Program-made: the position numbers and the translations under genes | NCBI GenBank assembly: GCA_015231955.1 | Contig: JADGAN010000002.1 | Location: 186,001 to 250,000 of the forward strand | Reading direction: 5' to 3' | DNA length: 64,000 nucleotides | Source of the DNA: Oligoflexia bacterium | Lineage (GTDB): Bacteria > Bdellovibrionota > Bacteriovoracia > Bacteriovoracales > Bacteriovoracaceae | Notes under the pieces: generated by a model | Database searches by the model: none | The model's input: the letters and a program-made list of their open reading frames with translations, nothing else | What the model was told of the DNA's origin: nothing | Shown: positions 1,382-10,063 of the stretch, in pieces | Position numbering within the stretch: position 1 is the stretch's first letter | Layout of the letters: the number at the start of each line of letters is the position of its first letter

Positions 1382-2368
1382 TTACTCCATTTCAAGTAGC
1401 AATAAAAGCTCCCTCACCGTAATCGAGCGTAAGCACGAATGGTGAGCACATATATCCTTTCCACAAAAGTGCGCTTGCAACGTACGACAACGAAGGCCCT
1501 CAACATAAAAATAGGGATGCAGATGCTCGTCATAGGGATGCCACTCTAAGGGAGCTTCCGGCCCAAAAAAACTTATTGTCTTTATATTTAAAGCTACCGC
1601 CAAATGCTTTAGTCCACTATCATTCCCAATAAACAACTTTGCTTTCGAAAAATAGAGCGGAATAAATTCTAGAGCTACCTTTAAAATTTTTACGGCCCCC
1701 TTCGGGAATCCCAGGGTACTAATCCTCTCTGCAATCTCTAAATCTCTTTTACTATCAGAGAGTGGGATAATAAATTTGCTCGCACCATCCCTTTGTAAAA
1801 CTGCCAGCACTAAATCTTTATAATATTCCAAAGGCCACATTTTGGTATCACGAGTAGCACTCACTCCCAGCAAAATCGCTCCACTCCACTGCTCAATATC
1901 GCGGGCCATCTCCCGAGAAATGCTCTCCCAAGCACTTTTCCGCACCTTCACTTCCGGCGTATACTGTAAATGATCGATCCCCCCCTCTGCTCCCACCCCT
2001 ATCAAATCGCGCTTCACAGAGGGCGCATACTGCGTTTTATGATGGTTATAAAATGTGTAGCGAGCACCCTTTGCCATCGCCAACATCCTACAAAAAAGTG
2101 CACTCCTACCATTTTGATGAAACTCATGAATACGCTCAATTTTTCCCCACTGCTGCCTGGCACTCTCTATCCAACCCTGCACACTCTCCAGTGCAAGTGG
2201 CATCACTACATCTGCAGGCGTCTCCAAATAGCGGTAGAGCGGAACAATCCATGCCGGAATTGCATAGACAATCCTCCTCTCCTCTCTCTCTCTGACAAAT
2301 GCCAGCGCCCCCAACCCAATCAGCGAGTCCCCCAGCGCCCGATACTTCACAAAAAGCAAATCTCTCAA
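1382..2368 (-). CDS. Glycosyltransferase family 9 (ADP-heptose:LPS heptosyltransferase-like)
   Basis: GT9 enzymes add heptose to the LPS core at the inner face of the cytoplasmic membrane. The 328-residue length is normal. The N-terminus (LLFVKYRALGDSLIGLGAL) matches the family's opening strand and glycine turn. The C-terminal half carries the nucleotide-sugar-binding motif FIGNDSGLKHLAVALNIKT followed by ISFFGP. The C-terminal part has a Cys/His-rich tail (CRTLQAHFCGKDICAHHSC), typical of many GT9 members. The start is a TTG at 2368 preceded by AAAAGGAAG about 8 bases upstream; no better ATG is seen. The stop lies 22 bases before the proposed greB start. Acceptor and exact sugar cannot be read from sequence. 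Confidence 0.8.
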   Translation of the reverse strand: MRDLLFVKYRALGDSLIGLGALAFVREREERRIVYAIPAWIVPLYRYLETPADVVMPLALESVQGWIESARQQWGKIERIHEFHQNGRSALFCRMLAMAKGARYTFYNHHKTQYAPSVKRDLIGVGAEGGIDHLQYTPEVKVRKSAWESISREMARDIEQWSGAILLGVSATRDTKMWPLEYYKDLVLAVLQRDGASKFIIPLSDSKRDLEIAERISTLGFPKGAVKILKVALEFIPLYFSKAKLFIGNDSGLKHLAVALNIKTISFFGPEAPLEWHPYDEHLHPYFYVEGLRCRTLQAHFCGKDICAHHSCLRSITVRELLLLLEME

Positions 2369-2698
2369 AAGTGTGGCTTCCTTTTCCGTTTGCGGTTACG
2401 CTAAATACACGCCCAGTACATGCCAGGAGCAAAATGGGCTTACACTACGCGACACCAATTCCTAACAGCTACAGCACTCCTTAGCTTTTACAGATGATCT
2501 TTGTTGTAACTGCAGAAGAACTCTCTTCGCAAGCAAAAATTGCTTCCCTCTTAAAAGAGAGTATCCGTGGGTAGCAACCTCAAGATTCAAAGAGTGCTTT
2601 GCCTTTGATTTTAAAAATCCACTTATTGTCTTGATGGAATGGCCTTGCTCGCGATATCTTTATCACATTATTAATCATTACTCTAAAGGAGATCATCG
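2369..2698. other. Intergenic region with nested inverted repeat
   Basis: There is no convincing gene between the divergently oriented heptosyltransferase and hepT genes. A nested inverted repeat lies at 2520-2562: outer arms ACTCTCTT and AAGAGAGT, inner arms AAGCAA and TTGCTT around an AAA loop. It falls inside a 26-codon frame that begins with ATG at 2494 and has no visible ribosome binding site, so I do not call that frame a gene. The right edge (2684-2691) is the AAAGGAGA ribosome binding site of hepT. Confidence 0.5.
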
Positions 2699-3076
2699 TT
2701 GAAAAAAATCTCCCTTGAACCTTTAAAAAAGGCCCTCCAAAGTTTAAAAAACGCTATAGCACAGACAAAAAATGAGTATATCAGGGACTCTGTAATCCAA
2801 CGTTTTGAATACACCTTCGAACTTTCTTGGAAAATCATAAAGAAAGTTTTAGAGCAAGATCAACCTCTCGAAGATGCCAGCGTCAAGGGAATCCTAAGAT
2901 CGGCAGCAACTTACGGTATTATTTCTAATTTAGAATTATGGTTCGAATTTCAACACGCAAGAAACTTAACTTCCCACACTTACAATGAAGATTCTGCAGA
3001 AGAGGTTTATGAAGTTGCCGTCAAACTACCTCCTGAAATCGATTTACTTCTTTTGAAGTTAAGTGTACGCAACTAA
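2699..3076 (+). CDS. hepT: HepT-like HEPN-domain toxin (HI0074 family)
   Basis: This 125-residue all-helical protein belongs to the HEPN group once called 'nucleotidyltransferase substrate-binding protein'. The sequence shows the RX4HXY motif as RNLTSHTY (residues 88-95); in characterised HepT toxins the Arg and His form the RNase site and the Tyr is AMPylated by the partner MntA. The N-terminal part (YIRDSVIQRFEYTFELSWKIIKKVLE) is typical of the family. The start is TTG at 2699, placed 7 bases after AAAGGAGA; a weak start codon would tune toxin dose. The stop is two bases before the mntA start, so the pair forms a translationally coupled operon. Motifs are intact, so the toxin is probably functional. 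Confidence 0.85.
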   Translation: MKKISLEPLKKALQSLKNAIAQTKNEYIRDSVIQRFEYTFELSWKIIKKVLEQDQPLEDASVKGILRSAATYGIISNLELWFEFQHARNLTSHTYNEDSAEEVYEVAVKLPPEIDLLLLKLSVRN

Positions 3077-3078
3077 CT

Positions 3079-3369
3079 ATGACTGTAGCAGCTCAAGATA
3101 AAATATATATTATAAACACGATCAAAAAATATTTCCCTTCGGCGAAAATCATGGCCTTTGGTTCAAGAATCAGAAGCGATCATAAAAAATTCTCCGATCT
3201 CGATCTTTGCTTGAACGACAGCATCCCCCTTCCTCTTGCAAAATGGTGCAAACTAGAAGAGGAGTTCTCTAACTCCAACCTTTTATACAAAGTCGACCTT
3301 TGTGATTGGCATAGAATTTCAAAAGATTTCCAACAAATTATCGCACAAACTTGCGAAACGTGGCAATAG
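3079..3369 (+). CDS. mntA: MntA-like minimal nucleotidyltransferase antitoxin
   Basis: A 96-residue minimal nucleotidyltransferase. The catalytic signature GSX10DXD is exact: GS at residues 28-29, ten residues, then DLD at 40-42 (in FGSRIRSDHKKFSDLDL). A later acidic residue in KVDLCDW probably supplies the third metal ligand. In studied HepT/MntA systems (type VII toxin-antitoxin) this enzyme transfers AMP to the tyrosine of the toxin's RX4HXY motif and silences it. It follows hepT by two bases in the same operon. Such pairs move between genomes and serve in stress response or phage defence; here the pair sits between housekeeping genes with no other mobile marker. Base composition is not obviously different from the neighbours. 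Confidence 0.85.
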   Translation: MTVAAQDKIYIINTIKKYFPSAKIMAFGSRIRSDHKKFSDLDLCLNDSIPLPLAKWCKLEEEFSNSNLLYKVDLCDWHRISKDFQQIIAQTCETWQ

Positions 3370-3424
3370 TGGTGTGCGCCTCTAAAACCACCTAAAATAA
3401 TCTCTTAAAAACAAATAAAAAATT

Positions 3425-4975
3425 TTAAAACGTAATCAGCTTCATACACTCCGGCCATTGTGCCTCCATGTTTTTTTTAAGTGTAGACAACTCTTCCTCT
3501 GGTCTTTGTACTGATTGCATGACCTGCATCTCTAGGGATTTTTTTAAACACTCACCAGCTTTTTTTTCCTCCTCTCCCGTTTGTTTCAGGAGTGGATTTT
3601 TCAGCTCTCTCTTTTTTGCGAGTGCAGTGAACGGACGATCACTAATGTTAAGTCTTTGGACCATCTCCCTGCAATGCTTATAAGCGGCCAAGGAGTTGAC
3701 CGAGTCCACGGCCGACTCGGCCATTGCTTGTAAAACCGTCAGCACTTCACCGATGTTCATAGGGCGATAGGTGTTGTGGTTCTTTAGCATACTTGCATTT
3801 TGATTATTGATGGTGATCGATTGCGAGGCCAACTCCAGCGCTACTTCGATATCAGAGGCAGGGCCCGCTTTTTGAGAGGACAAACAAAGGGGCCTTAATT
3901 TTTGCATTAAACGAAAAAAATTGGACAAATAATATTTGAGATCGCCATCATCAATAATTTTAGTTAGGCACTTGCCAAAATCTTTGAAATCTATGCTCAT
4001 ATTTTGCAACAACAGTGCCGCATAAAGGAGACGAGATTGCTTGGAAGACCATTCTGCTCCATCCGGAATTTTCTCCATCAGGAGTTCTGCAGTTCTAATA
4101 TCTGGGAGCTTACAAGGGGGAGGGAAGAGCATCGATAATTGATCAATCGATTTCACCCATCGCAATCCCTCTAAAGGATTTTGAAGACTAAAAAGTTTAT
4201 TGGTCTCACCAAAGATCAGGCGTGCAGGAAGAGAAGATTTCATGTGCATCGACTTTGCGAGTGCTGTTAACTGGGCCCCGGGTTGCAGATGCAACGAGGA
4301 GATGAATCTCATGGCCCTTAAAAGTCGATGCGGTTCACGCACAAAATACTGCTCATCCACCACTTTTAACTCCTTCTCGCCAATCGCATGGTAGGGGTCG
4401 ATGAGAATCCCTTGCTCACACATCGCTTGGATATTCGGGAGATCTCTCTTTTCTTTGTAGAGCTGATACATTTTCAGTGCATCCATGAGAACCGCATTCA
4501 CCGTTAAATCTCGGCGGATAAGTGCATCGCTATAGCTAAGATGAGGAGCAATCTCGATTTCAAGCTTGTCTGACTCTTTTGAATATTTTTCTCGCCGAGG
4601 GACGGCCAAATCTAAATCGGGGTCTTCAATATGAATCATCCCATATTGCCTATAGACCTTATATTGAGAGGGATTAGGAAAAACTTTGGCAACCATCTTT
4701 TCCAGTTCGTCAAAGGGAACATGATAGATCTCAATATCAGCGTCCTGGCCTCTCTTTCCTAAAAGATAGTCGCGAACACTTCCTCCAACAAAAAAGGCCC
4801 GAGGAGTCTCTTTAGGGTCCTCGGACACTTTCGCTTGGTTCATGATTTGCTGTAAAACATTGAGATGATTTTCGTAATTTAAAATAAAACCCTTTGTATC
4901 GGGATCGGGCGCTTTTTCTTGAGCAAAGAGGTTACTAAAGCTCACTAATAGAAACGTTGCTAAAGCTAATAGCAT
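3425..4975 (-). CDS. CCA-adding enzyme/poly(A) polymerase family nucleotidyltransferase with N-terminal signal peptide
   Basis: A class II tRNA nucleotidyltransferase/poly(A) polymerase-type enzyme. The palm motifs are intact: FFVGGSVRDYLLGKRG near residue 64, the metal-binding DAD near 78, the RRDLTVNAV motif near 160 and EPHRLLRAMRFISSL near 235. The helical tail domain follows. The odd feature is the N-terminus: from the ATG at 4975 (preceded by GGAGGG 11 bases upstream) the protein begins MLLALATFLLVSFSNLFAQ, a hydrophobic segment ending in a plausible signal-peptidase site before EKAPDP. The n-region has no basic residue; a longer frame starting near 5050 would add MRKLLILIIEKK. Normal family members are cytoplasmic and start directly in the catalytic domain. 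With a signal peptide the enzyme would be exported or membrane-tethered. The family is certain; location is inference. Confidence 0.75.
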   Translation of the reverse strand: MLLALATFLLVSFSNLFAQEKAPDPDTKGFILNYENHLNVLQQIMNQAKVSEDPKETPRAFFVGGSVRDYLLGKRGQDADIEIYHVPFDELEKMVAKVFPNPSQYKVYRQYGMIHIEDPDLDLAVPRREKYSKESDKLEIEIAPHLSYSDALIRRDLTVNAVLMDALKMYQLYKEKRDLPNIQAMCEQGILIDPYHAIGEKELKVVDEQYFVREPHRLLRAMRFISSLHLQPGAQLTALAKSMHMKSSLPARLIFGETNKLFSLQNPLEGLRWVKSIDQLSMLFPPPCKLPDIRTAELLMEKIPDGAEWSSKQSRLLYAALLLQNMSIDFKDFGKCLTKIIDDGDLKYYLSNFFRLMQKLRPLCLSSQKAGPASDIEVALELASQSITINNQNASMLKNHNTYRPMNIGEVLTVLQAMAESAVDSVNSLAAYKHCREMVQRLNISDRPFTALAKKRELKNPLLKQTGEEEKKAGECLKKSLEMQVMQSVQRPEEELSTLKKNMEAQWPECMKLITF

Positions 4976-5143
4976 GCTAACGACACCCTCCGTTTCAGAA
5001 TAAAATTTTTTTTCAATTATAAGTATCAGCAATTTTCGCATAGGGGTCAATTACCCAAATTATGGTAGGCATTTTAGTTAAAATCACTTTTATCTGATAT
5101 ATAAGTCTACCCCTGAAGATAGTTGACTCTCTCTTTGATCATT

Positions 5144-5161
5144 AGTAAGAGATCTCTTACT
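5144..5161. promoter_or_regulatory. Perfect 18-bp palindrome directly before the glycosyltransferase start codon
   Basis: AGTAAGAGATCTCTTACT is its own reverse complement and ends on the base before the ATG at 5162. It also contains the only purine-rich stretch that could serve as ribosome binding site. It could be an operator for a dimeric repressor, or an RNA hairpin that hides the ribosome binding site. No known consensus is recognised. Confidence 0.55.
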
Positions 5162-6070
5162 ATGCTTACAAAAAACAAACCTACAGTATCGGGCTTTACC
5201 TTTATTAAAAATGGTCTCTCTCTGGGTTACCCCATTTTAGAGAGTATTCAAAGTATCAGCGAGCTTTGTGATGAAGTGATCATAAGCGTCGGATTCGCTC
5301 CTAACTCTACCCAAGACGACGGCACAGAGGAGTATTTGCGATCCCACCTTAGTGCAAGCAAGTATAAATTTATTCGCTCCACTTGGGATCCACAAACAAT
5401 CGCCAAAGGTCAAGGCCTAATCCTCTCCGAGCAAACCAACGTGGCCCTTCGTGAATGCCATGGTAAATATTGCCAATATATTCAAGCAGACGAGGTGGTA
5501 CATGAGAATGATCTTCCTCTGATTGAGGATGGCATCAAAAAACTGGAGGCCTCTCCCAAACTGCACGCACTCATTTTCAACTACCTCCACTTTTACGGCA
5601 ATGTCGATGTGCTAAAACACACCCGCAATACCTATCGCCGCGAAATTCGTACCATTAGAAACCATCAAGGCATCATCAGCTGGCTAGATGCGCAAGGTTT
5701 TCGTTTTCAAGACGGACGCAAAATTCCCGCTACCCTCCTTGCAGGCGCACGCATTTTTCACTACGGTTGGTGCCGGCAAGAGATGATCATGAATTCCAAA
5801 ATCAAGGCCATGGATATTCTCTATCACGACCAGGATCAATTGCCCCAAGATCCCCGCTTTAAATATGAACGCATCTGGGGGCTTCGCCCCTTTACTGAGA
5901 GTCATCCGCAAATTATGAAAGAGTGGATCGCTCTCCACCGAAACCAGGTGGACATCTTCTCGCTGCCCATAAAATTTGAGTGGAAAAACTTAGGGCTTGC
6001 TGCCGCCGATTTTATCGAATCCCTAACCGATTACCGCCTTGGAGAATACAAAGGATATATTATCAGATGA
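5162..6070 (+). CDS. Glycosyltransferase family 2-like protein
   Basis: A cytoplasmic GT-A fold enzyme of about 302 residues. It opens with MLTKNKPTVSGFTFIKNG, followed by the family's nucleotide-binding segment (DEVIISVGFAPNSTQDDGTEEYL) and a DXD-like metal site in CQYIQADEVVHENDLP, where the usual DxD has become QADE. The later W-rich and H-rich segments (FHYGWCRQEMIMNSKIKAM) resemble GT2 relatives that act on surface polysaccharides. No transmembrane helix is seen. The frame extends upstream to a TTG at 5123, but the ATG at 5162 matches the domain start. Its stop overlaps the following receptor gene in an ATGA arrangement, so the two are cotranslated, an uncommon partnership. The acceptor is unknown. 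Confidence 0.75.
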   Translation: MLTKNKPTVSGFTFIKNGLSLGYPILESIQSISELCDEVIISVGFAPNSTQDDGTEEYLRSHLSASKYKFIRSTWDPQTIAKGQGLILSEQTNVALRECHGKYCQYIQADEVVHENDLPLIEDGIKKLEASPKLHALIFNYLHFYGNVDVLKHTRNTYRREIRTIRNHQGIISWLDAQGFRFQDGRKIPATLLAGARIFHYGWCRQEMIMNSKIKAMDILYHDQDQLPQDPRFKYERIWGLRPFTESHPQIMKEWIALHRNQVDIFSLPIKFEWKNLGLAAADFIESLTDYRLGEYKGYIIR

Positions 6071-8657: not shown

Positions 8658-8893
8658 GCAAATTAGCAGGCAAAAAAAAATTGGCATGGGGTAGTGGTGC
8701 CTACCTCCAACATCACCGGAGAACGGTAGTTGTCATAGCATTTTCACAATTTAAATCTTCTGTAATATGTAACTATTTGAATTAACGGTTTTACTTTTTT
8801 TTTATTTTCAACATTAAATTTTTTTTATTTTCTCTTTTATAATCACCTTCACTCATTACTCACTCAAAAAAAACAACTGTGGAGGTCGTTTGC

Positions 8894-10063
8894 ATGAGCT
8901 TACATTATTATAGTTATTTTAAATTTCTAACTGTTACACTAACTTTGGCCTATTCATCACTCTCTTTTGCAGAAGCATGGAATAGGATCAATAATCCAGA
9001 ACGTATGGCCTATGCGGGAAAATTTTCTGAGCATAAAATCGATTTGGATTATAACTTTAGTCATGGCATCCCCAGTGCAGAGGTTACCGCCCCATGGGCC
9101 GATAGCTTTTGGGCCACTTATCAAGGGGGAATTGCCAACCGTTATCAATACGGAAATATAAATGGAGTGGTTCCTAGCAAAGCAGAACTACAGCAGAACA
9201 GTTTAAAAAAATTACAAACTCTCCCTACAGAAGAGCTGCAAAAGCTATCTCCGGCAGAAAAATATGACATCTACTGTTGCAACTATAATTATCCACTTAC
9301 GAACAGTGAAATCAAAAGAACATACGCTACTCACCAACATCCTACGGAGCAAAACAAATGGACTGGGCTTTGTCATGGTTGGGCGCCAGCTTCTATCCAC
9401 TTTCAAGAACCAGATTGTACCACTCTTAGCAATAAAGATGGTATTCAAGTGCCTTTTAATTCTACTGATGTAAAAGCACTACTTGACTATTTTCAAGGAC
9501 AAGGTTGTAAAGAAAACACATGCACGGTAGGCGCACGCTGCAAAGACGATCCTAAGCACATCCGCAATTGGGACGCTTATCTTGACGTCAATCCCGGAAC
9601 TATGCACGTGGTGCTCACCAATCTTCTTGGCCGAGGTAAACAAGCACTGGCCTTTGATAAAGATCCTGCTAAAGAGGTTTGGAACCAACCCCTTTACGGT
9701 TACAGTTTTCAAGTCTTAAGCGAAGACAACAATCCTACATATAAGCATCGTGCAAGGGGAACGGCAAAAGAGGTTAGCGTGCGCTTAAATTTAAAATGGG
9801 TTGATGATCTCGACGAGGATGAAATTGGAGGTGATCACCCTTACGCCAATACGGAGCGTGTAAAGAAATATCTTCTCAATACCGATTATGAGTATATTTT
9901 GGAATTAGATGCAAAGGGAAATATTCTCGGTGGACGATGGATTGGTAAATCTATCAACGATCATCCCGACTTCATCTGGTTAAAACAAAAAGGGGTCTTC
10001 TCTAAATCCTCTTTTTGGAAACCACTAGAAACCATTTACGAATCCTCCATTAAAAAGCAATAA
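8894..10063 (+). CDS. Secreted transglutaminase-elicitor-like protein
   Basis: A 389-residue exported protein. The ATG at 8894 follows GGAGG with 8-base spacing (a GTG at 8879 is in frame but less likely) and gives a signal peptide cleaved near SSLSFA/EAW. The mature part resembles the transglutaminase family first described as oomycete cell-wall elicitors (GP42 type), which also has bacterial members. The candidate catalytic cysteine is C160 in WTGLCHGWAPAS; the candidate histidine is H238 in NPGTMHVVLTNLLG. The C-terminal region has the characteristic GGRWIGKSINDHPDFIW. Several cysteines (CCN, CKENTC, C) suggest disulfides. Such enzymes form isopeptide bonds between Gln and Lys side chains. 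It appears monocistronic. The family call rests on motif memory; substrate is unknown. Confidence 0.7.
   Translation: MSLHYYSYFKFLTVTLTLAYSSLSFAEAWNRINNPERMAYAGKFSEHKIDLDYNFSHGIPSAEVTAPWADSFWATYQGGIANRYQYGNINGVVPSKAELQQNSLKKLQTLPTEELQKLSPAEKYDIYCCNYNYPLTNSEIKRTYATHQHPTEQNKWTGLCHGWAPASIHFQEPDCTTLSNKDGIQVPFNSTDVKALLDYFQGQGCKENTCTVGARCKDDPKHIRNWDAYLDVNPGTMHVVLTNLLGRGKQALAFDKDPAKEVWNQPLYGYSFQVLSEDNNPTYKHRARGTAKEVSVRLNLKWVDDLDEDEIGGDHPYANTERVKKYLLNTDYEYILELDAKGNILGGRWIGKSINDHPDFIWLKQKGVFSKSSFWKPLETIYESSIKKQ

Follow-up and report, generated by a model that had tools for sequence, protein, structure and literature searches.

Enzymes of the CCA-adding/poly(A) polymerase type are, to our knowledge, treated as strictly internal RNA-end enzymes, the organelle-targeted forms of eukaryotes apart. 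The locus studied here raises the question of what such an enzyme would do behind a hydrophobic leader. An earlier note, made from the letters alone, had read the gene as encoding a polymerase of this type with all palm motifs intact and an export signal in front. We analyzed the window (the whole stretch of DNA, 64,000 nucleotides) and compared the gene product, referred to as P0001, with related proteins. The gene and the elements at its start are as follows.

3425 to 4975, minus strand: coding sequence of 516 amino acids (P0001), class II tRNA-nucleotidyltransferase-like with an N-terminal hydrophobic leader, assigned by open reading frame, Pfam and fold match
4922 to 4975, minus strand: signal-peptide-like leader, residues 1 to 18 (MLLALATFLLVSFSNLFA), with cleavage proposed before Q19, from sequence inspection
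4987 to 4991, minus strand: Shine-Dalgarno-like GGAGG, 11 nucleotides 5' of ATG 4975
5022 to 5050, minus strand: promoter-like TTGACC-17-GATACT, overlapping the alternative starts TTG 5050 and ATG 5041

The gene is real. Its frame opens at ATG 4975 and continues uninterrupted until the stop at 3425 on the minus strand (516 codons), and its codon usage is ordinary (24th percentile of 179 genes). All evidence for P0001 comes from one draft genome of 114 contigs. The 11-nucleotide spacing of GGAGG at ATG 4975 was shared by 6 of the 94 contig genes with a strong site and is therefore within the range of the contig. Upstream, chance alone accounts for as many promoter-like matches as the region has, so the overlap is a weak argument against TTG 5050 and ATG 5041. 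Downstream, in-frame starts ahead of the domain are limited to GTG 4945 (codon 11) and ATG 4846 (codon 44), with none between codon 11 and Met44. Initiation at codon 11 would leave a mere remnant of the leader. Initiation at codon 44 would damage the helix formed by residues 27 to 45, because this helix, which is confident in the AlphaFold2 model, is part of the catalytic domain; relatives share the N-terminal helix region. The GGAGG at ATG 4975 and the lack of an internal start that would keep this helix while dropping the whole leader thus make translation of the leader probable, at least in part.

We then assigned the domain. The PF01743 PolyA_pol head domain was detected at residues 60 to 167 with 49.3 bits (gathering cutoff, 23). 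NCBIfam CCA models gave 54.3, 51 and 47 bits, the best of them far below its cutoff of 438.8, and the PcnB model TIGR01942 gave 34.7 bits against a cutoff of 305.65; the CCA-type models therefore scored higher, both kinds remaining below their thresholds. Sequence matches in the PDB were the enzymes of Aquifex and Thermotoga and further CCA enzymes. An AlphaFold2 model built with 41 sequences was confident between about residues 40 and 240, where the pLDDT mostly exceeded 90, and had low confidence in the C-terminal half. Foldseek matches in the PDB at E ≤ 0.001 were tRNA nucleotidyltransferases or CCA-adding enzymes, or entries titled only "tRNA processing enzyme" or "bacterial protein." The family assignment given earlier, that of a CCA-adding/poly(A) polymerase-type enzyme, thus stands, with CCA models ahead of PcnB. 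The motifs lie at the following positions.

4769 to 4789, minus strand: motif A, VGGSVRD, residues 63 to 69
4736 to 4744, minus strand: metal-binding carboxylates DAD, residues 78 to 80
4508 to 4516, minus strand: motif B, RRD, residues 154 to 156
4304 to 4339, minus strand: motif D, REPHRLLRAMRF, residues 213 to 224, in place of EDPxRxLRAxRF, with E changed to R and D to E
3971 to 3985, minus strand: degenerate HD motif KDFGK, residues 331 to 335, where relatives have HDFGK

Nine residues that are invariant in alignment A2 (41 sequences), namely, G64, G65, R68, D69, D78, D80, R154, R155 and D156, were all kept in P0001. The strings GGSVRD, DAD, RRDLTVNAV and EPHRLLRAMRF, on which the claim of intact palm motifs had been based, are indeed present, but the last of them hides a change: the EDxxR template of CCA-adding enzymes reads R213-E214-P-H-R217 (REPHR). 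Relatives have F-x-[ED]-D-P-x-R-x-L-R in this motif, whereas P0001 has F-V-R-E-P-H-R-L-L-R. Positions D214 and F211 are nearly invariant in alignment A2, and the second position of EDxxR, Glu in P0001, was Asp in 104 of 104 relatives with a readable motif. In published work (PMC11784652), EDxxR is described as templating the incoming nucleotide, and selection yielded no substitute for its Asp or Arg. With REPHR in its place, ordinary C-C-A addition by P0001 is therefore unlikely, even though the protein may be able to hold metal and NTP. An insert of about 23 residues (about 167 to 189) follows motif B. With its template altered and its HD motif devoid of His, the enzyme is not simply intact, as had been assumed.

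The genome encodes a second PF01743 enzyme, an ordinary 424-residue Cca that has no leader (L001), while most of the 58 sampled genomes of the family encode exactly one PF01743 protein. In addition, the 3' flank was read for 27 tRNA genes, and each of them encodes CCA. With the housekeeping Cca present and CCA encoded in the tRNA genes, P0001 is, as judged from gene content, an accessory copy that is free to change. A search of 369 genomes of the phylum yielded no orthologue (best match, 40 bits), and peptide-pattern scans of GTDB r220 and IMG/VR, which together with the motif scans covered 85,000 species or viral contigs, returned no close relative. The pattern EPHRLLRAxRF gave seven genome matches and one viral match, none of which encoded a relative. 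Plasmid and phage records held nothing closer than generic CCA enzymes, a viral scan with alignment A1 gave generic relatives only, and PADLOC gave no match for P0001. One record labeled "Bacteriophage sp." (MT835871.1) has, as read from the translations, an ordinary CCA enzyme among apparent glycosidase genes; it is probably bacterial DNA misfiled as phage. In the tree, P0001 was on one of the two longest branches (2.12 changes per site), and its placement is unsure, given this long branch and support of 86/94 on a branch of 0.018. By all these comparisons, P0001 is an orphan: a strongly changed, fast-evolving relative of the class II nucleotidyltransferases.

The hydrophobic N terminus with a signal-peptidase-like end that the earlier note had described was confirmed. 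The leader has a mean hydropathy of 2.57 over 12 residues (22% of the 194 open reading frames of the contig score at least as high) and ends in SNLFA|QEKAP, a plausible signal-peptidase site. Other hydrophobic leaders of the contig end similarly (TKLFA, NQLFA, NNLFA and SLLFA). The h-region and c-region of a Sec signal are thus present, but Lys and Arg are missing from the n-region, which is unusual yet common to 8 of the 65 hydrophobic leaders on the contig. A composition classifier assigned the body of P0001 an export-like probability of 0.33 to 0.37, compared to 0.05 for the housekeeping Cca; 11% of exported-like and 65 to 68% of cytoplasmic-like proteins scored lower, which makes the body intermediate. 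This classifier was trained on the same contig and, with an AUC of 0.79, is too weak to decide. The cysteine content, 1.5%, equals the cytoplasmic median, and neither it nor the composition of the body appears to fit exported proteins clearly. The search proposed earlier, for the same leader joined to the same domain in relatives, found none among about 90 compared, the next best hydropathy among the 89 others being 2.0; further readable members of the family had N-terminal values of at most 1.7 and no comparable leader. Export of P0001 is plausible on these features, and the likeliest role of the leader is export or membrane tethering. Elsewhere in the window (8879 to 10063), another leader-bearing protein matches the "transglutaminase elicitor" domain of Pfam with 153 bits.

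P0001 is encoded in a block that also carries a toxin-antitoxin pair.

2369 to 5122, no strand assigned: block of HepT, MntA and P0001 between two genes that are adjacent in four relatives (L148, L155, L156 and L158)
1382 to 2368, minus strand: left flank, glycosyltransferase family 9 (heptosyltransferase-like)
2699 to 3076, plus strand: HepT, HI0074-type HEPN toxin, from Pfam, NCBIfam and the motif RX4HXY (RNLTSHTY)
3079 to 3369, plus strand: MntA-like minimal nucleotidyltransferase antitoxin of 96 amino acids, with GSX10DXD
5159 to 6070, plus strand: right flank, conserved glycosyltransferase-like gene without a Pfam match

The block measures about 2.75 kb. The flanking genes are immediate neighbors in the four relatives, and, in the family search, 37 of 58 genomes had a match to the right-flank gene, mostly at 48 to 63% identity. 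One or more insertions would be the simplest reading of the block, at whose ends no flanking duplication or repeats were found. The HepT/MntA pair (2699 to 3369) looks intact by its motifs, RX4HXY being the HepT motif as defined in PMC7641770. Homologues of HepT are patchy (129 of 369 phylum genomes) and reach 59 to 65% identity in distant families, a spread that fits the expectation for a mobile toxin-antitoxin pair. The closest homologues of HepT/MntA include ones from distant families of the phylum, which suggests horizontal transfer. The pair and the P0001 gene are convergent and share no operon. No class II nucleotidyltransferase was found in the stretches of 4 to 9.5 kb that surround 20 further HepT/MntA pairs from the phylum; P0001 and HepT/MntA as one system is therefore not supported, and P0001 lacks the conserved linkage expected of a third component of this type VII system. 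Of the neighborhood claimed for P0001, then, the pair itself is present, but its association with the enzyme is an insertion seen in one genome, in convergent orientation and without a counterpart at the other loci.

The reading that we favor, although we give it slightly less than an even chance, is that P0001 is an accessory, fast-evolving class II tRNA-nucleotidyltransferase that carries a Sec-type signal or signal-anchor and has been respecialized. Residues 1 to 18 would target it to or across the inner membrane, where it would be cut after LFA or left tethered. The head domain, which keeps GGSVRD, DxD and RRD, would hold metal and NTP there and pass a nucleotide on to an acceptor. With REPHR as its template, the enzyme would be active but of changed specificity, probably without ordinary C-C-A addition. 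A stronger claim is that the class II fold, with a rebuilt nucleotide-recognition template, now serves in an exported enzyme modifying RNA or some other acceptor beyond the cell's own cytoplasm; this we regard as unlikely. NTPs are scarce outside the cytoplasm, which counts against an exported P0001, and the literature searched, with partial coverage, held no exported CCA enzyme. Moreover, no feature points to RNA of a prey, host or competitor as the substrate.

The N terminus could instead be an uncleaved anchor keeping the catalytic domain at the inner membrane on its cytoplasmic side, which would make P0001 a membrane-bound RNA-tailing or tRNA-repair enzyme. The cytoplasm is the site of NTPs and RNA, the cysteine content matches that of cytoplasmic proteins, and a membrane location has been reported for E. 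coli poly(A) polymerase I (Jasiecki and Wegrzyn 2005, as cited in PMC9764084). The end of the leader, a plausible signal-peptidase site, speaks against an anchor. There is no charge before the hydrophobic segment except the N terminus and a net charge of about −1 just after it; the positive-inside rule, as read here, favors N-in/C-out over C-in. We hold the cytoplasmic anchor to be rather improbable. About as doubtful, or a shade more so, is that P0001 is a pseudoenzyme, or a gene under relaxed constraint, that has lost its nucleotidyltransferase function. The altered template and HD motifs, the very long branch and the restriction to a single genome, with no orthologue, would agree with such a loss, but the frame is uninterrupted over 516 codons with ordinary codon usage, DxD, GGSVRD and RRD are all kept, and the head is well modeled. 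We give least credence to a role in tRNA 3'-end repair, in which HepT would trim, P0001 would rebuild in the cytoplasm and the leader would be incidental. According to PMC10435456, a HEPN toxin of this kind takes the final four nucleotides off some tRNAs, which makes an adjacent tRNA-end enzyme an attractive partner; moreover, the three genes share one block that is missing from four relatives, and HepT and MntA carry RX4HXY and GSX10DXD. Nevertheless, the convergent genes and the 20 unlinked pairs speak against such a partnership, the leader would make little sense in it, and the housekeeping Cca could by itself take care of CCA repair. For other HEPN toxins, the RNA that is cut is mRNA or rRNA, and the three genes may have come separately.

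If the favored reading of a signal-bearing, template-altered enzyme is true, a fold of the cell interior has taken on work at the membrane or outside it. The change of Asp to Glu, where published selections allowed no variation, offers a simple test of how nucleotide choice evolves. The leader-bearing P0001 is seen in one genome only.

Compared to known systems, P0001 shares its head domain with PcnB (TIGR01942), and membrane association has been reported for the E. coli enzyme in the work cited above; unlike PcnB, it scores 34.7 bits, far under the cutoff. MntA is also a nucleotidyltransferase and lies in the same inserted block, but it is a minimal protein of 96 residues with an unrelated architecture. 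The weak neighbor of P0001 in the tree is a divergent class II enzyme of the family (L014, L004, L006, L033 and others), which likewise lacks the first Glu of EDxxR but, unlike P0001, keeps the Asp and has no leader. In L014, L004, L006, L020, L028, L029, L031, L033 and L034, K, Y, L, Q, N or R stands where this Glu would be, next to an unchanged Asp, so that the nucleotide template varies naturally. This divergent enzyme often appears to be the sole PF01743 protein, and many genomes of the family appear to rely on it. One genome (L211; G052:C16 and C25) encodes a PF01743 protein in a 635-residue frame twice, with identical scores, beside the divergent enzyme. The best sequence and fold matches of P0001 are the class II CCA-adding enzymes (PF01743; PDB 1vfg, 3h37, 1miv and 4wbz), with which it shares the fold of the catalytic head, GGxVRD, DxD, RRD[LF]T[IV]N and the R..R of motif D. 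It differs from them in an identity of only about 20 to 30%, the hydrophobic leader, REPHR for EDxxR, the insert of roughly 23 residues, the HD motif without His and scores far below the NCBIfam CCA cutoffs.
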